Source: a virus
Direction: 5' to 3' (one strand)
IMG/VR virus record: IMGVR_UViG_3300020205_000817
Coordinates: 1 to 27,699 of that record
Length of the DNA stretch: 27,699 bases
Part shown: positions 7,435-25,282 of the stretch, in pieces
Numbering within the stretch: position 1 is the first letter of the stretch
Layout: every line of letters starts with the position of its first letter
Program-made: the position numbers and the translations under genes
Notes under the pieces: generated by a model
What the model was told of the DNA's origin: nothing
Databases searched by the model: none
What the model saw: only the letters and a program-made list of their open reading frames with translations

Positions 7435-8133
7435 TTAAGCGTTTGGTATTTTGCAATACGTAGCATCTGCTGTACCAAATGTCCAGGGTGTAGCTACATC
7501 AGTGACATAAACTGTACCAGTACCACGAGTCAACGTAGCTTTGTGGGCTGTTAACTTGGTTACATAGTAAGTACCGCTTGATGCATCTGTTGCTACAATT
7601 TCCATTTCACCGGCTGCTGAACTTGCTGAACTTTTCAGTTTGCAAATCATTGTGCCGTCTGCTGTTTTTACTTTATAACGTGTACCAGATACTTGCTTAA
7701 TTATATCAGCAACTTTGCGACTTCCGCCAGTTACATAAGCATAAGCAGTAATTGCATTTTCTTCATAAGTAGCTGAACCGACGGTACCGCTATCAACTTC
7801 AAATACTGCTGTTGCTGTTCCGGTTGTTTCTGCACCCCCATCGCTGTCAGCAATAGTAACTGTTGGCAATGCTGTGTATCCAGAACCTTTTTCTGTCATT
7901 GTGACTAGTGTTGGTGCACCTGCTGTAATTGTCACAGTACCAGTAGCTGTTACACCGCCTGGCAGTTGTGGAGCACTAAAAGTTACTGTTGAGGTAGCTT
8001 GAGTGAAATTAGCCCAGCTTCCGCCGATTGTTACACTGGCAATGCCGTTACCACCAATACCATCATCAGTTGTTACGCTTGTGGAACCGATGTTACGGTT
8101 ACCAAAATACTTTTTATTTAGACTTCTTGCCAT
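7435..8133 (-). CDS. virion structural protein (232 aa)
   Basis: Probable abundant structural protein. The opening MARSLNKKYFGNRNIG resembles structural proteins of aquatic T4-like phages that I recall. The body is Gly, Thr, Ala and Val-rich and contains the beta-repeat 'EKGSGYTALPTVTIADSDGG' (around residues 81-101), related in style to the 'GxGYxxGD' modules of the 1858 aa protein. There are no catalytic motifs. The start is well supported by AAGGAG 8 nt upstream of the ATG. The gene forms a single-gene unit: a CATAAATA late promoter at 8215-8222, a structured 76-nt leader and a strong terminator at 7387-7415. That suggests high, separately controlled late expression. Its place in the particle is unknown. 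Confidence 0.75.
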   Translation of the reverse strand: MARSLNKKYFGNRNIGSTSVTTDDGIGGNGIASVTIGGSWANFTQATSTVTFSAPQLPGGVTATGTVTITAGAPTLVTMTEKGSGYTALPTVTIADSDGGAETTGTATAVFEVDSGTVGSATYEENAITAYAYVTGGSRKVADIIKQVSGTRYKVKTADGTMICKLKSSASSAAGEMEIVATDASSGTYYVTKLTAHKATLTRGTGTVYVTDVATPWTFGTADATYCKIPNA

Positions 8134-14548: not shown

Positions 14549-16241
14549 CCAGTGGGGCTGGTTCTGGTGCCGGGGCACCTGGTGGTGCTCCTGGAACTGC
14601 ACCAGCTTCAGGTGCTCCTGGCATACCTTCTGGTGGCATCATCGCATCTGCTGAACCCATGTCTGATTCAATTCCGCCTGGTGTAATACCCACACCACGC
14701 AGACCCACGTCAGTTGTTCCTGGATCTGATTCATTGCCTTTTTCTTCAGCCCATAACTCATCATTTTCCAGCATCTCTTCTTCACTTAAGCCTAGATATC
14801 TCTTGAGTAAGAATCGTTTGCTTAGATATGGCAATGGCTCTAGTTGGGCAAATACTGCGGCACGTACTCCGTCAATCTCTGCTTGTTTGTTTTTACTAAA
14901 GTTTTGTGGTTCGTTAAATGTCAGGTCAAATATTGAATTGTCAATGTTTACTCCTCTCCAACGACAAAACATCTTAAATTCTGTATCTAATGTTTCGGCC
15001 AGCAATGTCTGTAAACGTATACAATACTGGTTAAATCGCCATTCCTGTATTAATGCTGTACCTACTTTGCCATCAGTAACTGATTGCGATCCGTCTTCGG
15101 GGCCAGTGGGCAAATAGCTACTGGGAATACGTAATCCACGGAATAGTTTATTGGTAAAGAAACGTAAATCGTCAATTTCTCCCAGGTTTGCCCCACCAGC
15201 TAATGTAGTAACATCACTGCCTTTGCCGTCAGCACCCACTGGAAAGAAGTAATCTTCGTTCATGCTCATTGGGTTGTATGTGGCATCCATCATATTAGTA
15301 CCACCGCCACTCTGACTGGGTATACGACGTTGCCAAACTTCGTTCTTTACACGTTCTACAAATGCCATGGCCATGTGGCTGGGCATATTGCCCACATCAA
15401 TCTTGAAAATTCTGCGCTCTGGCGCACGTTGTACACGGTAGATGATAATGCTGTCTTCCAGCAATTCCTTCTGCTTAAAGACTTTAAATATCTGTTCTAA
15501 TATACTATTGCCAAACGGCCAATTGGCATCTAACCCCTCTGTTAAACTTAAATGTACTACATGTTCTGCACCAATTACAGCTTCATTTTGTGCTGTGCTA
15601 AACCGAGTTGTCCCACTACTGCCTGTGGATGAAGTAGGTTGATACAGACCACCACTACTGGTATTTGGCTGTGTAGTATGTAGATCGCTTGTGGTTTTTT
15701 GTGTAGCAGTTAAATTTTCAAAATTTGGATGTAAATCTTTAATAATATATTGCTCAGGTTCTTTGCCCTTGCTTTCATTTACAATAACTTTAGTTACTTT
15801 ACCTGGCTCAACCCAGTATAACTCAAATGTTTCTGGATCTCTAAGAAAAACTTGATCGCCATACTTGAGTGAGTTACGGAATAATTTAAATATACGCTTG
15901 TTCCATTTGTTCAAGCTAATCCAGGCCAACATTTGTTCTTTTAGTATATTAACTTCTCTATCTGTAGGGCGGCCTTTAAATTGTAGATCAAAAGCCGCAC
16001 CATTGTTGGTGGCTTTTTGTGTACAAAACTCTGCAATTACATCTAACGCAGAATTTACTTCTGAATCTAAATCCATTTGTTCGTATTGATTATAACGATC
16101 TAAACGATTGGGATGACCAGTATATACTTCTGGTAATTGATGTTGGTAATTGCGGTAGGCAAAGTCTGGCCGCTGGTTAGCATTAGTTAGCGGGCTAACA
16201 TTGTTTATTTCTACTACCTTAAAATGCTTACGCCATGTCAT
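14544..16241 (-). CDS. 20: portal vertex protein gp20 (565 aa)
   Basis: Forms the dodecameric DNA entry ring and initiates head assembly. The N-terminus 'MTWRKHFKVVE', then 'LPEVYTGHPNRLDRYNQYEQMDLDSEVNSALDVIAEFCTQK' (about 34-74), is diagnostic of T4-like portals. So are 'YGDQVFLRDPETFELYWVEPGKVT', 'IIIYRVQRAPERRIFKIDVGNMP', 'FFPVGADGKGSDVTTLAGGANLGEIDDLRFFTNKLFRGLRIPSSYLP' and 'KRFLLKRYLGLSEEEM'. The C-terminal 50 residues are Pro, Ala, Gly and Met-rich ('GMPGAPEAGAVPGAPPGAP'), probably disordered. The start has TAGGAA about 8 nt upstream, but that site and the ATG lie inside the 3' end of the GIY-YIG endonuclease gene, which overlaps by 14 nt. No intron interrupts the frame. Confidence 0.96.
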   Translation of the reverse strand: MTWRKHFKVVEINNVSPLTNANQRPDFAYRNYQHQLPEVYTGHPNRLDRYNQYEQMDLDSEVNSALDVIAEFCTQKATNNGAAFDLQFKGRPTDREVNILKEQMLAWISLNKWNKRIFKLFRNSLKYGDQVFLRDPETFELYWVEPGKVTKVIVNESKGKEPEQYIIKDLHPNFENLTATQKTTSDLHTTQPNTSSGGLYQPTSSTGSSGTTRFSTAQNEAVIGAEHVVHLSLTEGLDANWPFGNSILEQIFKVFKQKELLEDSIIIYRVQRAPERRIFKIDVGNMPSHMAMAFVERVKNEVWQRRIPSQSGGGTNMMDATYNPMSMNEDYFFPVGADGKGSDVTTLAGGANLGEIDDLRFFTNKLFRGLRIPSSYLPTGPEDGSQSVTDGKVGTALIQEWRFNQYCIRLQTLLAETLDTEFKMFCRWRGVNIDNSIFDLTFNEPQNFSKNKQAEIDGVRAAVFAQLEPLPYLSKRFLLKRYLGLSEEEMLENDELWAEEKGNESDPGTTDVGLRGVGITPGGIESDMGSADAMMPPEGMPGAPEAGAVPGAPPGAPAPEPAPLA

Positions 16242-16806
16242 TTTGTATTCCTACTTTTCTTCCTAAAGTAAACTCCGCTGGTTCTTTGCCTGGTTCGAAC
16301 ATTTTTGTTGTTTGCCCATCATTATACCATCGTTTTTTGCTCATCGTTGATCCAATTTTAATATATCGCCCATCATCCTTTCGCCCGATGTTAGCTATTC
16401 TTATTTTTTCAATATGCTCTTTAGACTTGGGTTGTTTCATTTTTTGTTTTGTTGCCTCTGATTTTTTGATCCCCAACATGGTCTTTGAAATTTTCATTTT
16501 TGTTTCTTTAGAATGTCTCCATCCATAGTGACATGCCCATTGATTTATTTTAATATTATCCAAGATACCACCGTCTACTTTACGTCCGTATTTTTGTATT
16601 AAATTACCTTCTAATATTTTTGCTTCTGCATTTGTAAGGTTTTGTGCTATTTTGATTCTTTTTTCCTTAGACGGAGTTAATGTATGTACATGTTTTTTGT
16701 GGATTCTGCTATCTTTTCCTTTACCAATATAATAAGGCAATCCATTCTCATCTATATATTGATAGACATAAAAAACGGCTTTGTTTGTTTCAGTTTTCCA
16801 GCTCAT
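16228..16806 (-). CDS. GIY-YIG homing endonuclease with NUMOD3-type DNA-binding region (192 aa)
   Basis: A free-standing mobile endonuclease, similar in layout to T4 seg genes. The catalytic domain is at residues 8-75: 'VFYVYQYIDENGLPYYIGKGK' is the GIY-YIG core, followed by Arg in 'DSRIHKKH' and Glu in 'AKILEGNLIQKYGR', the expected metal ligand. Residues about 95-150 contain NUMOD3-like segments ('HSKETKMKISKTMLG', 'SKEHIEKIRIANIGR') that bind DNA. The C-terminal 'RWYNDGQTTKMFEPGKEPAEFTLGRK' module recurs in phage homing endonucleases. It cuts a target in phage DNA to spread itself. It has its own TATAAATA at 16832-16839 and AGAGG before the ATG, and its last 14 nt overlap the portal gene. 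Base composition is visibly more AT-rich than gp20. Confidence 0.9.
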   Translation of the reverse strand: MSWKTETNKAVFYVYQYIDENGLPYYIGKGKDSRIHKKHVHTLTPSKEKRIKIAQNLTNAEAKILEGNLIQKYGRKVDGGILDNIKINQWACHYGWRHSKETKMKISKTMLGIKKSEATKQKMKQPKSKEHIEKIRIANIGRKDDGRYIKIGSTMSKKRWYNDGQTTKMFEPGKEPAEFTLGRKVGIQNDMA

Positions 16807-16863: not shown

Positions 16864-19761
16864 TTAACCTGGCATCTTTTTCCAAAGATCAATCACTTCG
16901 TTGCGTTGGACCACTGCTTTTTTAGTAATCTTAATTGATTGTTTGGCTTTTTGTTCTGTCAATGCACGTTTAATCAATGGTCTGGTATTGCTTTCTGTTA
17001 ATGGTTTAGTTTCTACTTTGGTTTTCTCAACAAAGTTTTCAAACATGTCAAGTGCATTTTTAGCACGTTTGGTTAAACGTAACTCTGATTGAGGGATACG
17101 TTTAGACATGGCAGTATATATAGGAGCACTTTCTATAACTGGAGGGGATGTTACAGTCTTGGCTTTAACACTGGTACGTTTTTTTGATGCTACTTTGGGT
17201 TTACCAAAATTTTGATCTAACCGAGCACGTATATCGTTTACATATCCTGGTTGTGCTCGATTATCGAGTTTGAGCAGACTAGTCACTAAATCGTTGATTT
17301 CTTGACCAATTTCTCTCGTTACTGCTTGTACTTGGGCAGGGGTTGACGCTATTTCACCTGCCGGCGTTGCGGCTGCACCTGTTGAAGTTGCTGTTCCACC
17401 TGCGGCTGCACCTCCTGCTGGTGCTCCTGCTGGTGCTCCTGCTGGTGCTTCTGCTGGTGCTTCTGCTGGAGTATCTGGTTTAATTCCCAGTGCGGCTTTG
17501 GCTTTAGCTACTGCTGGATTATCAGGATTACCTGGGCCACCTGCGGCTGCACCTCCTCCTGCTGGTGTTGCTGTTCCACCTGCGGCTGCATCTGGTGCTG
17601 GTACTGCTGCCGCGTCTGTTATTGCTTGCGGTACTGGTAATTTTGATTGAGTAAACACATCTGAAATTACCGTTGCTGGCACTCCTTGACCTTGCAGGAA
17701 GGTTGCAATTTCATCTGATTCAGTTGGTTTATCTTTCCCCCAATTCATTCTTAACTTCTCGGCAGTAATTTTTGTGGTAAACTGATGCCCAAGTTGTTTA
17801 GCACCTGCCCACATTCTACTCAGTAAGCCTGGTTTTTTTGGCGTGGATGCTCCGGCTGCTGTTGCACCTGCTGGTGCTGGTGCTCCTGCTGGTGCTCCTG
17901 CTGGTGCTCCTGCTGGTGCTCCTGCTGGTGTTGCTGTTGCACCTGCTGGTGCTGGTGCTGGTGCTCCTGCTGGTGCTCCTGCCGGTGCTCCTGCCGGTGC
18001 TCCTGCCGGTGCTCCTGCTGGTGCTCCTGCTGGTGCTCCTGCTGGTTTTGCATCTGCTGCCGCGGCTCTTCTTGCTCTTCTTGCAGTAGTCGTAGCTGCC
18101 ATTGATGCTACATGCTCTGGATTATTTTTATCATAGATTTCTGGCTTAGGTGCTCCGCCTGCTGGTGGTGCATCTTCGTTTAATAATGATTCCGTAACTA
18201 CTATTTGTATATGACGTTGATATCTTTCTACGTTTTTAAATATATTGTCTATACCAGCTTCTGTAATATGGTAACGATGTTTGTAATTACGACCCAACGA
18301 TTCACCCAACATCCAAACATGTGCTGTTGTTTGACGATCAATCATTGCTGACAAATCAATAGTTTTGGCTTTGAATGGTTTAATGGAGTTGGTTGTAGCT
18401 ACAATTGCTTCCATCAACATATTGTTCATGTTACGGCGTGATTCGGCAACCTGCTGACCTGGTGCTGCCTTAAGTGTTGGTGTTGGTACTGGTGCTGGTG
18501 CCGCAGATGCTGGATTTGGGGTGTACTGTCCACTGGCTACTTTAGCGGCTGTGTCTGACGCGGTACCCACTCCTTGGTCGTATACTGAATTACCAGTTTC
18601 AGCTGGAATAGTAATTTTTTGCCCGGTCTTTAAAACATCAGGGTTTGTTATGTCTGGGTTGGCCTTCATCATATCAGGAACAGATACATTGTTTTTTTCA
18701 GCAATCTGGCTCAGTGTATCATTTTTAACTACAGTATACTCTGTACCATTACCTGCGGCACCTAGCTGACTATAATCAGCCGGAGTAGTGCCTGGCTCGG
18801 CAGTTTGCATAATTGCTTTATTCATATCAGCAGTGGAATCCGCACCATCTATGCCATATGCTTTGGCATTTGCGGCGTTGTTAGCCATAGTTTCTGCATC
18901 TAAAGCTGGCACATCTGGTCCACCACTGCCATTTGCAATATCATCCGCATTCATTTGTGATTGTGGTGTGACCGGCGTGCCGGGGGCGAGTGGGTCAGGG
19001 CCTGCGCCTGGCAGGGCTGTAGAATCAGGATTGTAGTAAGTACCGCCAGTTTCGGGATTAATTTTGAAACCGGGCATCAAGTTGCCGGCATCATCATATG
19101 CCGGCATTTTGCTAGGATCAAAAGCTGGCGCGGATCCGCCACTAAATGCTTGTTGAGCTTGTCCAATTCCGTATGCTGTTGCACCAGTTAAGAATCCAGA
19201 CCACAGTGAGCTACTTAATTTGTTACCCAATAGCAACTTGTCAAACAGCTTTATACCACCAAGAATAGCCGCACCACCAAGTCCTGCACCACTTAATCCA
19301 GTTAATGCTATCAAACCTGCATAGATTGCGCCTTGCATAATTGGATGTGCGTTTGCAAATTCACGATATTTTTTAATTGCAGTCATTATTTTACCATCTT
19401 GCCCGAACTTGTCGCCGAGTTTTCTGGCTAATATGTCATAACTAGTATCAAAACTTTCTATGCCGCTTGAAATACCAATTTTTTTATCGACTGCTCTAAA
19501 TGCGTTGGAAATTGCTGTTGCCGCATCTGTTGCCGTATCTTTGCCTTTGCCCAATAAAGTTCTGTTACTAGCACCACCTGGCATTTTACCAGCGGCTGTT
19601 ACACCCTTTTCAATGTTTGCAAACAAGTCTAAAATTTCTTTTTCGCTCATTTGTCTCTCAACCAGCATACGACCAGCACGATTAAATGCTTTATAAGTTG
19701 TATCTTCTCTGATCATATCTTCGAACAAACGTGGTTTTGGTAAAATTGCGGAAATTTTCAT
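16864..19761 (-). CDS. LysM and Pro-Ala-Gly repeat virion-associated protein (965 aa)
   Basis: A large modular protein of unknown exact role. In order: a helical N-terminus (1-130); a hydrophobic Gly/Ala-rich segment 'MQGAIYAGLIALTGLSGAGLGGAAILGGI' (142-170) that could insert in a membrane; a linker; a LysM domain at 342-388 ('YTVVKNDTLSQIAEKNNV ... LKTGQKITIP') for peptidoglycan or chitin-like glycans; a conserved-looking helical part (440-525, including 'HVWMLGESLGRNYKHRYHITEAGIDNIFKNVERYQRHI'); long (Ala-Pro-Ala-Gly)n runs (572-636 and 764-800) flanking a 'LRMNWGKDKPTESDEIATFLQGQGV' module (671-695); and a basic C-terminus. AAAGG precedes the ATG and a perfect TATAAATA lies at 19787-19794. 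Membrane segment plus LysM suggests cell-envelope contact during infection, perhaps as an ejected or tail-tip protein; this is inference. Confidence 0.7.
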   Translation of the reverse strand: MKISAILPKPRLFEDMIREDTTYKAFNRAGRMLVERQMSEKEILDLFANIEKGVTAAGKMPGGASNRTLLGKGKDTATDAATAISNAFRAVDKKIGISSGIESFDTSYDILARKLGDKFGQDGKIMTAIKKYREFANAHPIMQGAIYAGLIALTGLSGAGLGGAAILGGIKLFDKLLLGNKLSSSLWSGFLTGATAYGIGQAQQAFSGGSAPAFDPSKMPAYDDAGNLMPGFKINPETGGTYYNPDSTALPGAGPDPLAPGTPVTPQSQMNADDIANGSGGPDVPALDAETMANNAANAKAYGIDGADSTADMNKAIMQTAEPGTTPADYSQLGAAGNGTEYTVVKNDTLSQIAEKNNVSVPDMMKANPDITNPDVLKTGQKITIPAETGNSVYDQGVGTASDTAAKVASGQYTPNPASAAPAPVPTPTLKAAPGQQVAESRRNMNNMLMEAIVATTNSIKPFKAKTIDLSAMIDRQTTAHVWMLGESLGRNYKHRYHITEAGIDNIFKNVERYQRHIQIVVTESLLNEDAPPAGGAPKPEIYDKNNPEHVASMAATTTARRARRAAAADAKPAGAPAGAPAGAPAGAPAGAPAGAPAGAPAPAPAGATATPAGAPAGAPAGAPAGAPAPAGATAAGASTPKKPGLLSRMWAGAKQLGHQFTTKITAEKLRMNWGKDKPTESDEIATFLQGQGVPATVISDVFTQSKLPVPQAITDAAAVPAPDAAAGGTATPAGGGAAAGGPGNPDNPAVAKAKAALGIKPDTPAEAPAEAPAGAPAGAPAGGAAAGGTATSTGAAATPAGEIASTPAQVQAVTREIGQEINDLVTSLLKLDNRAQPGYVNDIRARLDQNFGKPKVASKKRTSVKAKTVTSPPVIESAPIYTAMSKRIPQSELRLTKRAKNALDMFENFVEKTKVETKPLTESNTRPLIKRALTEQKAKQSIKITKKAVVQRNEVIDLWKKMPG
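17400..18050 (-). repeat. 12-bp tandem repeats encoding Ala-Pro-Ala-Gly
   Basis: The plus strand shows near-perfect repeats of GCTCCTGCTGGT (some with GCC for GCT) at about 17877-18050, and shorter runs at about 17400-17465. They encode (APAG)n in the 965 aa protein. Copy number probably varies by slippage. Long open frames on the other strand here are artefacts of the 3n-length repeat. Confidence 0.9.
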
Positions 19762-22651: not shown

Positions 22652-23500
22652 ATGGTTGACAACAATCAAAATCCACTAGCAAAACATTTCAGACAGCCAT
22701 CAATCTATATCAAACTGCCCAGTGGTGGCAAATATTGGGCTGAAGGTAGTGTAGAACTACCGCTGAATGGGGAATTACCAGTATATCCAATGACCACCAA
22801 AGATGAGCTTACTTTACGTACACCTGATGCATTAATGAGCGGGCAAGGAGTTGTTTCTGTAATTCAAAGTTGTTGTCCCAATGTTAAAAATGCCTGGGAT
22901 GCTCCAAGTATTGACATGGATACATTGCTTATTGCTATCAGAATTGCCAGTTATGGGCATGATATGGATGTGGATTCGTTATGTGTAAAATGTCAGGAAC
23001 CCAATCGGTTTACTATTGACCTACGTTCAGCATTGGATTCTATTATTCCTCCTGACTACAATACTCCACTACAAGTAGGCGAATTGCGTATCAAACTTAA
23101 ACCGCAGGAATACACAGAAACATCCAAAGCCAATGCAATGGGTTACGAAGAACAACGTATGGTAGCAAATATTAACGAGTCCACTCTTGATGCAGAAGAA
23201 AAAGCCCGAGCAATAGCCGCACAAATGAATAAGCTGATTGATATGACTACTGACTTGTTGGCCAAGAGTACTGCATATATTGCGCTATCGGAAGGAGATG
23301 TAGTCAGTGATCAGAATTTTATCAAAGAGTTTTATGCCAATGCTCCATCTACTATAATTAGAACTATCCAGGAAAAGATAGGACAAATGGCCACTGATGC
23401 CGCTATTAAACCATATCAAGTTAAATGTACTTCGTGTGAAGCAGAATACAGCATGAGTGTGGACTTCGATTACGCAAGTTTTTTCGACGCAGGCTTTTGA
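22652..23500 (+). CDS. 26: baseplate hub protein, gp26-like (282 aa)
   Basis: Baseplate hub component or assembly factor. The N-terminal 'FRQPSIYIKLPSGGKYWAEGSVELPLNGELPVYPMTTKDELTLRTPDALMSG' and 'VIQSCCPNVKNAWDAPSIDMDTLLIAIRIASYG' are characteristic of the gp26 family of T4-like phages. Two cysteine pairs, Cys111-x-x-Cys114 and Cys259-x-x-Cys262, could bind one zinc ion, bracketing the C-terminal half. It is longer than T4 gp26 (208 aa). GGGGGA lies 8 nt upstream of the ATG and a perfect late promoter at 22611-22618. It overlaps the next gene, a gp51-like protein, by 4 nt if the TTG start is used, and is divergent from the tape-measure-like gene; together these look like a hub assembly locus. 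Confidence 0.85.
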   Translation: MVDNNQNPLAKHFRQPSIYIKLPSGGKYWAEGSVELPLNGELPVYPMTTKDELTLRTPDALMSGQGVVSVIQSCCPNVKNAWDAPSIDMDTLLIAIRIASYGHDMDVDSLCVKCQEPNRFTIDLRSALDSIIPPDYNTPLQVGELRIKLKPQEYTETSKANAMGYEEQRMVANINESTLDAEEKARAIAAQMNKLIDMTTDLLAKSTAYIALSEGDVVSDQNFIKEFYANAPSTIIRTIQEKIGQMATDAAIKPYQVKCTSCEAEYSMSVDFDYASFFDAGF

Positions 23501-24063: not shown

Positions 24064-24071
24064 TCTAAATA
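24064..24071 (+). promoter_or_regulatory. possible late promoter (TCTAAATA) after the membrane gene
   Basis: Identical to the octamer at 23779-23786 and immediately after the stop codon at 24061-24063. With T4 geometry it would start an RNA near 24077 that ends at the terminator at 24184, about 108 nt long and without a closed reading frame. Confidence 0.35.
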
Positions 24072-24134
24072 CCACAAAGGAATATATTGCTCATGGTTAT
24101 TCTTAAAGTGATATATTCTTTTCCATCTTCTCTT

Positions 24135-24153
24135 AGTTGTTCTTCGAACAACT
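24135..24153 (+). other. 8-bp hairpin with TTC loop upstream of the terminator
   Basis: AGTTGTTC-TTC-GAACAACT, a perfect inverted repeat followed by a pyrimidine-rich stretch. It precedes the terminator hairpin by 4 nt and may assist it or be part of a small RNA. Confidence 0.6.
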
Positions 24154-24157
24154 TTCT

Positions 24158-24184
24158 TCTTCGCTTACGCTCGAAGATTTTTTT
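24158..24184 (+). terminator. rho-independent terminator of the gp26-gp51-membrane protein unit
   Basis: TCTTCG / CGAAGA stem with an 8-nt loop followed by seven Ts (24178-24184). It lies about 95 nt beyond the last plus-strand stop codon. Confidence 0.75.
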
Positions 24185-24208
24185 ATTCTTCTAATTGTTC
24201 TTTTAAGA

Positions 24209-24214
24209 TATAAT
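24209..24214 (+). promoter_or_regulatory. possible -10 element (TATAAT) before the structured RNA
   Basis: Perfect TATAAT placing a start near 24221, where the first arm of the outermost stem begins. No convincing -35 hexamer lies 17 bp upstream, so this is weak. Confidence 0.25.
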
Positions 24215-24218
24215 TATT

Positions 24219-24562
24219 AAGTGCTTTTATATAGCTTCATCTAGATTAACTAGTCATAATTTGCCTGAATCGGCAAAAAATGACTAAGGCACTTCATCTG
24301 AGTTGCACCAGCCACTGATCTAAAGAGATTGTATTTCTACACGGAGGCGGTTGTCCTGTACCCCCTACTCTAGCATTTGTCATAACAACGGGACCTACGT
24401 TACACGGATCAGCGATGTAACCTCGGTATGGGATGTATCTTTTTCACAGAGCCCAGAATCGTTTAAAGCCTATAAAGTTTGCTTCTTGCCTGCAACGCTC
24501 CAGCTAATCTGACGGCAACAGGGATACCTGGCAGTCTCAAGGAGGGTCGAGCTATCCCGACC
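24219..24562. ncRNA. candidate structured non-coding RNA, strand undetermined
   Basis: In the 527-nt gap between converging genes there is no credible protein frame, but G+C is visibly higher (about 48% at 24361-24420) and inverted repeats are dense. I see: AAGTGC 24219-24224 with GCACTT 24289-24294, enclosing TAGTCAT-AA-TTTGCC / GGCAAA-AA-ATGACTA (24251-24286, loop TGAATC); TTGT/ACAA around CATA (24377-24388); GTTACA/TGTAAC (about 24409-24421) with outer ACC/GGT; TTGCC 24486-24490 with GGCAA; CAGG-GATA-CCTG near 24520-24530; and GGTCG/CGACC at 24545-24562. I looked for tRNA, tmRNA, RNase P, group I and group II signatures and found none. It could be a novel phage RNA or a 3' region of the recombination operon. 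Confidence 0.4.
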
Positions 24563-24590
24563 AAACAATGTTGCTATGTAAATGCCTATA

Positions 24591-25094
24591 CTACTGTGTG
24601 AAAAATTCAGAATCGGGCTGTTTTAAGAATGTGCCAAGTTTGTATATGTAATAATTTTTATATTTAAAGGATTCTGGTGTGCCTGCGATCGGGTTTTGTA
24701 AAAATACTATCTCTGGAACGTTGTTGTATTTAACAATAAGTGCCAATTTTTTGCCTGAGTTGATACTGTCTTGTACTACTTGCCCCAACCAGTCATCCCA
24801 TTGTTTCACTGTGTGCTCTACAATGCTCTGAAAGGTCGGTGCAGTCTTGTAATGCTTACATTCTACACTAAATGCAAAGTTTCTGGGGCATATTAAATCC
24901 CCAAATATTGCATAATCCATACTGTGTGTTGCTGTTCGTTGCGTATTACTACCCCCGAAAAAACTACCACTGTCAGGGTTACGTCTAAATCCCTGCTCAA
25001 TACCTAATATTCCAGCAAATCGCTCGCTTAGTAAATTGGCTATTTTACGTTCAAAGCCATTTCCCTTCTGCTTGCCATTCACTCGTTTAGTCAT
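24591..25094 (-). CDS. PD-(D/E)XK nuclease, Holliday-junction-resolvase-like (167 aa)
   Basis: Putative structure-specific DNA nuclease. The N-terminal 'KQKGNGFERKIANLLSERF' (8-26) supplies Glu15; 'FRRNPDSGSFFGG' (36-48) matches the Arg-x-Pro-x-Ser-Gly segment of archaeal-Hjc-like resolvases; 'FGDLICP' gives Asp66; and 'FSVECKHY' gives the Glu78-x-Lys80 motif. Together these form a complete PD-(D/E)XK active site. Such nucleases cut branched DNA or recycle genomes in T4-like phages lacking gp49-type resolvase. It follows gp46 and the basic H1-like protein; its ATG shares a base with that gene's stop (TAATG). This supports a recombination and repair role. A restriction-endonuclease-like alternative cannot be excluded. 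Confidence 0.78.
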   Translation of the reverse strand: MTKRVNGKQKGNGFERKIANLLSERFAGILGIEQGFRRNPDSGSFFGGSNTQRTATHSMDYAIFGDLICPRNFAFSVECKHYKTAPTFQSIVEHTVKQWDDWLGQVVQDSINSGKKLALIVKYNNVPEIVFLQNPIAGTPESFKYKNYYIYKLGTFLKQPDSEFFTQ

Positions 25095-25282
25095 TAGGCC
25101 TTCGCAGTCATTGCGTTTTTCTTTTCCTGGATCTCGACTCTACGACTTTTCGTTAACTTAGATAGCTCACTCAGTGCCTTTCTGGCACGTCCGGCAGCAG
25201 CCTTGTTGCTCTTGACTTCAAATGCTTCTTGCTCTTTGGTATAAGTTTCAACGGCGGCCAAAATTGATTCATGTGTACTCAT
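25094..25282 (-). CDS. histone H1-like basic protein (62 aa)
   Basis: Small basic helical protein. 'KSNKAAAGRARKALSELSKLTKSRRVEIQEKKNAMTAKA' (residues 24-62) has the Lys/Ala/Arg pattern 'AAxRARKALxELxKLxKxxRxEIQExKN' seen in short proteins of T4-like cyanophages that are annotated as Hc1/histone-H1-like. The N-terminal 20 residues are neutral to acidic. Probable DNA or chromatin-like binding is inferred from charge and resemblance. The start has AAGGAG 7 nt upstream. It lies between gp46 (53-nt gap) and the resolvase-like nuclease (1-nt overlap), in an operon for DNA recombination. Confidence 0.7.
   Translation of the reverse strand: MSTHESILAAVETYTKEQEAFEVKSNKAAAGRARKALSELSKLTKSRRVEIQEKKNAMTAKA

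Follow-up and report, generated by a model that had tools for sequence, protein, structure and literature searches.

GOLLD and ROOL RNAs are borne by phages and prophages, are non-coding and of unknown function, and display an elaborate, conserved and pseudoknotted fold; kissing contacts in RNAs of this type covary intermolecularly (PMC12286853). The non-coding RNA of DRT10 and the template of telomerase RNA (an A-B-A' arrangement) contain two identical short sequences that vary freely between systems and lie next to a stable stem-loop. IS110 bridge RNAs and the omega RNAs of TnpB and IscB are structured and carry short recognition sequences, and freshwater-2 and other Weinberg motifs in Rfam are candidate structured RNAs of aquatic viruses. 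The element described here resembles each of these in part. It lies in a 27,699-nucleotide stretch of viral DNA (IMG/VR record IMGVR_UViG_3300020205_000817, positions 1 to 27,699, hereafter 'the window'), in which comparative analysis identifies positions 24236-24590 as a real structured RNA, encoded on the minus strand directly 3' of a gene for a PDDEXK nuclease. Near its 3' end stand two identical copies of a short sequence (the 'tag') that differs from phage to phage.

Unlike GOLLD and ROOL, this RNA is matched by no Rfam covariance model, measures about 350-500 nucleotides, occupies a fixed site by the baseplate hub gene (in aquatic phages), and carries its paired tags. Unlike the DRT10 and telomerase RNAs, it comes from phages in which a search for reverse transcriptase (PF00078) was negative in all 12 genomes while the control search was positive, its repeats are far apart around a hairpin, and one tag is used genome-wide. 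ColE1 RNA II and the phage T4 origin transcripts share with it a structured RNA (RNA II), a middle-type promoter, several copies over the genome and A+T-rich downstream DNA, but here the GC skew is unchanged and most relatives have a single copy. In contrast to bridge and omega RNAs, it is accompanied by neither an IS110 recombinase nor a TnpB/Cas12f zinc-binding domain (0 of 10 genomes for each). The window does contain a freshwater-2 match (RF02980, 8131-8207, minus strand, 56.8 bits, just before the start of the gene at 7435-8133), but that motif differs in locus and sequence, and neither it nor the other Weinberg motifs match the element.

An earlier note, made from the letters of the window, had proposed a novel structured RNA at 24219-24562, describing the interval as non-coding and higher in G+C than the adjoining sequence. 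Both descriptions held: no open reading frame of at least 60 amino acids occurs in 24064-24590, and the G+C fraction is 0.47 in 24301-24600 versus 0.31-0.40 on the flanking sides. The hairpin that it placed at 24251-24286 is present, as is the enclosing AAGTGC/GCACTT (24219-24224 and 24289-24294), although this enclosure is not conserved in relatives. Since the single-sequence folding energy is unremarkable (z = -1.85 on the plus strand and -0.91 on the minus strand), stems alone would prove nothing, and the case rests on conservation and covariation. Both favour a novel phage RNA, with these corrections: the conserved element is slightly longer than first drawn, and its strand is opposite to that of the hub operon. 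Its ends (5' near 24590, 3' conserved end near 24236) were inferred from conservation.

Covariation among homologues, which the earlier note had named beforehand as the test, was found in an alignment of 26 full-length relatives (A6), which has compensatory double changes at 37 of the 56 pairs predicted. In a further alignment (A4), 94.2% of cells are paired, versus at most 53% when partners are slid by 1-3 columns, with 221 double changes versus 58 after shuffling; in an independent alignment (A5) of sequences not used in model building, the corresponding values are 92.1% versus at most 49%, and 299 versus 96. The slid control preserves the relatedness of the sequences, for which the shuffles do not correct. 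Hairpin A combines an almost invariant loop with freely covarying outer pairs, and an inner pair of hairpin C is G.U in 40 of 43 relatives. The pseudoknot that engages the loop of hairpin C, which was absent from the model used for A5, is paired in 98.8% (A4) and 93.6% (A5) of cases, including the variants UUGA/UCAA, UCAC/GUGA, UCGC/GCGA and CGUA/UACG. By these comparisons the helices, loop pseudoknot included, covary strongly, and we regard the predicted fold as established. A decayed protein gene or intron was ruled out by the absent reading frame together with the compensatory base changes.

Correspondence to a known RNA class was likewise sought. When the 4227 models of Rfam 15 (including GOLLD, ROOL, OLE, HEARO, RNase P, tmRNA and group I and II introns) were compared with the window, 13 RNA-bearing loci and 12 loci of jumbo phages, no family reached its gathering threshold for this RNA; on the element itself nothing appeared even at E < 10 except two irrelevant low-score matches. 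ARAGORN found no tRNA or tmRNA in the window and no tmRNA in the jumbo-phage copies. The earlier statement that the element matches none of five classes (tRNA, tmRNA, RNase P, group I and group II) was borne out; as for membership of the large ornate phage RNAs, which the note had also suggested, Rfam connects it with no named large RNA among those compared, GOLLD and ROOL included.

Near the 3' end of the full-length alignment, the 3' hairpin stands between ACUC-NNNNNN and AUCU-NNNNNN. The six variable bases, the tag, differ widely among phages (AGAUGA, GGAUGA, AGAUAA, ACAUGA, ACGAAA, AUGAAG, AUAGCA, ACCACA and others), and yet the two copies were identical in all 26 full-length relatives; in two of these (L015 and L042), where MAFFT had shifted the columns by three, the match was read by eye and then confirmed by an identity search. 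In an independent set the copies were identical in 54 of 55 RNAs, and with the tetramers as the only anchor 46 of 52 pairs agreed, versus 10.8 after shuffling (maximum 20 in 2000 shuffles). Agreement reaches the seventh base (91%), giving a tag of 6-7 nucleotides; the copies lie about 50-85 nucleotides apart, enclosing the hairpin, in sequence predicted to be unpaired. In jumbo phages with several copies of the RNA, all copies within one genome carry one tag: CGUCAG in GAP32, CBB and BF, CGUCAA in 121Q and XaC1, and CUUCAAG in the two RaK2 copies that were read. These comparisons demonstrate both the identity of the tags within an RNA and the use of a single tag per genome in multi-copy phages. 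A search within the RNA revealed no third segment that covaries with the tags, which places their partner elsewhere.

Two rival explanations bear directly on this pattern. The RNA might be a template from which tandem-repeat DNA is made, with the tags as its A and A' repeats, by analogy with DRT10 or telomerase, where variable sequence and obligatory identity beside a stable stem-loop form the same formal pattern (PMC12632851). We consider this very improbable, given the negative reverse transcriptase search, the distance between the tags with a hairpin between them, and the use of one tag by every copy in a genome, for which template realignment creates no need. Alternatively, a large ornate RNA of the GOLLD/ROOL type might self-assemble into a multimer or cage, with the tags as intermolecular contacts; such an RNA would also be phage-encoded, pseudoknotted and of unknown function, intermolecular covariation of kissing contacts is known from that type, and the tag context seen most often, AUCUAGAU, is a palindrome. 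Against this, most of the remaining tags (ACGAAA, AUAGCA, ACCACA) are non-palindromic and have no complement in the RNA, which is shorter than GOLLD, ROOL or OLE, matches none of them in Rfam, and has no tRNA island beside it within the window, and we judge this explanation unlikely.

Table 1. Features of the structured RNA and its immediate surroundings (coordinates in the window)
Feature	Position	Strand	Basis
Structured RNA gene	24236..24590	minus	A6 full-length alignment and 56-pair consensus fold; match to model R2 at 24294-24471 (minus), 149.3 bits
5' hairpin GGUCGGGAUAGCUCGACC	24545..24562	minus	covarying pairs in A6, columns 29-35/41-47
Hairpin A, NNGG-CUC-UGU-GAAAMAGAU-ACA-A-CCNN	24429..24455	minus	46 double changes at two outer pairs; signature of pattern scan
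Long helix B, two segments	24394..24426	minus	helices 3 and 4 (A4, A5); double changes at 9/10 and 10/10 pairs
Pseudoknot strand 1, UUGU of CCGUUGU	24385..24388	minus	pairs with 24351-24354
Helix D, AGAG (24368-24371) paired with CUCU (24324-24327), around hairpins C and E	24324..24371	minus	97.1% paired; double changes at 4/4 pairs
Hairpin C, GGGGGU-ACAGG-ACAA-CC-GCCUCC	24343..24365	minus	helix 7 in A4; G.U/A.C strand counts
Pseudoknot strand 2, ACAA in hairpin C loop	24351..24354	minus	pairs with 24385-24388
Variable-length hairpin E, between helix D and hairpin C	24330..24341	minus	sequence pattern in A4, A6
Tag copy 1, AGATGA, after ACTC	24294..24299	minus	equals copy 2 in 26/26 relatives and 54/55 of independent set
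3' hairpin between both tags (hairpin of the earlier note)	24254..24283	minus	covarying pairs in A6, columns 348-355/361-368
Tag copy 2, AGATGA, after ATCT	24237..24242	minus	equals copy 1 in 26/26 relatives and 54/55 of independent set
PDDEXK_15 endonuclease gene, immediately upstream on the RNA strand	24591..25094	minus	Pfam PF24608, E=6.4e-24; PHROG RusA-like Holliday junction resolvase
T4 gp26-like baseplate hub gene, convergent conserved neighbour	22652..23500	plus	Pfam PF12322; synteny
Intrinsic terminator of hub operon, beyond RNA 3' end	24156..24184	plus	hairpin and T-run; conserved in relatives

The strand was assigned from several indications. In a strand-neutral helix scan, A.C exceeded G.T mismatches on the plus strand (88 versus 60), which leans towards minus; the consensus fold energy is lower on the minus strand; and the minus-strand structure contains 253 G.U versus 17 A.C cells, a count biased in that direction by the derivation of the structure on that strand. 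Consensus sigma-70 promoters stand immediately 5' of the RNA in two relatives in which it occupies another gene context (TTGACA-17-TATAAT in L015, TTGACT-16-TATAAT in L042). Upstream of the jumbo-phage copies, on the RNA strand, are TGRAAC and TGnTATAAT, which by their sequence correspond to a divergent RpoD-like promoter class (TGAAACG) described as preceding many DNA-synthesis genes of CBB (PMC5259590). These counts and promoters place the RNA on the minus strand, and overturned the plus strand, which had been the first working assumption. The rival view that the conserved structure works on the plus strand, within the hub operon, is favoured by the slightly lower single-sequence z on that strand, but is opposed by the mismatch scan, the consensus energy, the promoters of relatives and the plus-strand terminator that separates the hub genes from the element, and we give it scarcely any credence. 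That the RNA is transcribed is inferred.

Relatives of the element were recovered by several routes. In IMG/VR contigs reached through the neighbouring nuclease gene, the corresponding gap is about 73% identical in two (L002 and L003) and more distant in a third (L004). A 20-base signature motif, TGTNYCTKTTTCACAGAGCC, occurs in more than 119 IMG/VR stretches versus one or two expected by our own estimate, with complementary flanks that vary. Across 63 dereplicated families the RNA mostly has the T4 gp26-like hub gene on one side and the nuclease and gp46 genes on the other, and at 80 further loci, collected through an alignment of the hub protein, the covariance model (E-values of the models built here are rough) found it in 66, in every case on the strand that does not encode the hub. 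In aquatic phages of 290-345 kb one copy is seen; L283, an aquatic phage of 177 kb, seemed to have a second, but this falls in a coding gene and is false. Among 85,000 cellular genomes only seven exact motif matches were found, all of which look like chance (the match with the highest score falls within dnaG), and a cellular origin was rejected. The distribution is virus-only and spans hundreds of large T4-like phages, some giants of E. coli and Klebsiella having four or five copies each. Open-access papers yielded no description of the RNA, and one may exist in a subscription journal.

In most aquatic phages the RNA starts only tens of bases past the nuclease stop codon and on the same strand, as would be expected of a 3' untranslated element that stabilises or regulates the nuclease/gp46 operon messenger RNA in cis. 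The RNA is nevertheless found in other gene contexts (L004, L013, L015 and L042) and follows other genes in L013, L015, L025, L042 and L101, as do three or four of the copies in each jumbo phage, with a dedicated promoter in several of all these cases, and we therefore regard such a role in cis as rather improbable.

A blastn search of the window against named phages gave no match, and named relatives were consequently reached only through the hub protein. The nearest of these are jumbo T4-like phages, several of which have, at the corresponding position, a gap without annotation. The gap of phage 121Q matches 41 named phages, mostly at four or five places per genome and with all copies on one strand; the RaK2-like jumbo phages 121Q, GAP32, CBB, BF, XaC1 and RaK2 all carry the RNA unannotated. 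Phage 121Q has four copies, and RaK2 seems to be without the one at the hub. The aquatic-type model R2 places its best match at the expected position in most jumbo copies, and these matches, singly weak (best 20.5 bits), agree in place, strand and order. A pseudoknot core, CCGUUG..GG-NCAAC-C, unites the window type with the RaK2-like copies, its order and strand agreeing between them, and the aquatic type and the jumbo copies likewise coincide in the core ACCGUUG...CAACCCGC. With both this core and the tag pair present, the two sets constitute one new RNA family. On the plus strand, GACGGGAUUUG of the jumbo copies resembles Escherichia coli tmRNA by eye; this candidate was rejected, having no tmRNA or Rfam match and the wrong strand. 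The annotated frame GAP32_503A (GAP32 record 341071-341184; L285:2572-2685) falls within one copy of the RNA and is unlikely to be a true gene. PA5oct, Atu_ph07 and Phosso gave no match to the RNA model; the largely unannotated hub-resolvase gaps of 1.0-1.5 kb in Sinorhizobium phage Phosso (L142:6223-7238) and Pseudomonas phage PA5oct (L141:5525-7039) are possibly other structured RNAs.

The jumbo genomes also bear upon a further rival, in which the RNA would be an origin-of-replication transcript, made from a middle-type promoter, forming an R-loop with its template (as at T4 origins or in ColE1 RNA II) and priming DNA synthesis, with the tags as iteron-like sites of a phage initiator protein. 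The copies, which share one strand, are spaced more regularly than chance would give, at P about 0.0015 for GAP32, CBB and BF and at P about 0.02 for 121Q and XaC1; their promoters are of the class that precedes DNA-synthesis genes (PMC5259590); the DNA immediately 3' of the RNA is A+T-rich (0.70-0.76); and short repeats that change in concert next to a hairpin are reminiscent of iterons. The evenly spaced genomes share ancestry, however, and represent one case rather than five. In GAP32 the GC skew changes sign at none of the copies, staying positive at four of them and close to zero around the one by the hub, aquatic phages of 290-345 kb show a single copy, and the fold is more elaborate than a primer should need. 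An origin transcript is accordingly a doubtful, if conceivable, explanation.

The reading that we prefer, and to which we assign an even chance, is that of an RNA tool of infection that acts in trans and offers a pair of recognition sites to a single phage-specific partner. When two sites alter in step over several gene copies, the simplest explanation is one partner acting in trans. The stand-alone RNA would be transcribed leftwards from just past the nuclease gene, and its pseudoknotted core (hairpins A-C and helix D) and 3' hairpin would display the two copies of the tag, one before and one after that hairpin. It may act in the delayed-early phase, with both tags read by a single partner, which could be either a target nucleic acid with which they base-pair (the tag serving as an address) or a phage protein with two sites of action, the tags then being two operator-like sites on RNA. 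A change of partner would be followed by every tag in the genome, and the extra gene copies of RaK2-like phages would raise the RNA dose. More tentatively, the RNA may be programmable: a pseudoknotted scaffold with a duplicate, phage-specific 7-nucleotide address that brings together, marks or blocks two copies of a target in trans, and is rewritten in all gene copies together upon a change of target.

Several observations weigh against this preferred reading. The complement of the tag is not enriched in the RNA region nor clearly in the surrounding loci (48 versus 36 expected), and in GAP32 such complements are not at special places. L004, L241 and a few other families have no clear tag pair, and two of the tag searches required identity, leaving the anchored counts (26/26, 54/55 and 46/52) as the fair tests. 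A role in trans does not require the even spacing seen in RaK2-like genomes. Within the window no convincing promoter for the RNA is visible, and it could be processed from the nuclease transcript.

Other features of the window include the loop TTCGCTNNCGCTC, conserved in the terminator hairpin at 24156-24184; relatives repeatedly have similar nested hairpins, GNRA-like at the tip, on the downstream side of the RNA. Between the nuclease and gp46 genes, positions 25094-25282 (minus strand) encode a small basic protein matching histone H1-like Hc1 (PF07432, E=4.9e-10). A 192-amino-acid frame at 16228-16806 (minus strand), between the portal gene and a gene for a 965-amino-acid protein, has a GIY-YIG-like start (YVYQYIDENGLPYYIGKGK) and resembles a homing endonuclease by eye. 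The 965-amino-acid protein contains a low-complexity PAGAPAGAP repeat (17820-18150), with long mirrored open reading frames in other frames.

Large T4-like phages, including well-studied jumbo phages of E. coli and Klebsiella, carry several hundred unannotated bases of RNA, in up to five copies and at a place conserved across a deep clade, and the covariance family is ready for use in annotation. Phages 121Q and PBECO4 grow on E. coli, which makes transcription of the RNA, its partner and the need for it directly testable. A conserved RNA of such scale, with a variable and duplicated address, implies a partner that nobody has sought.
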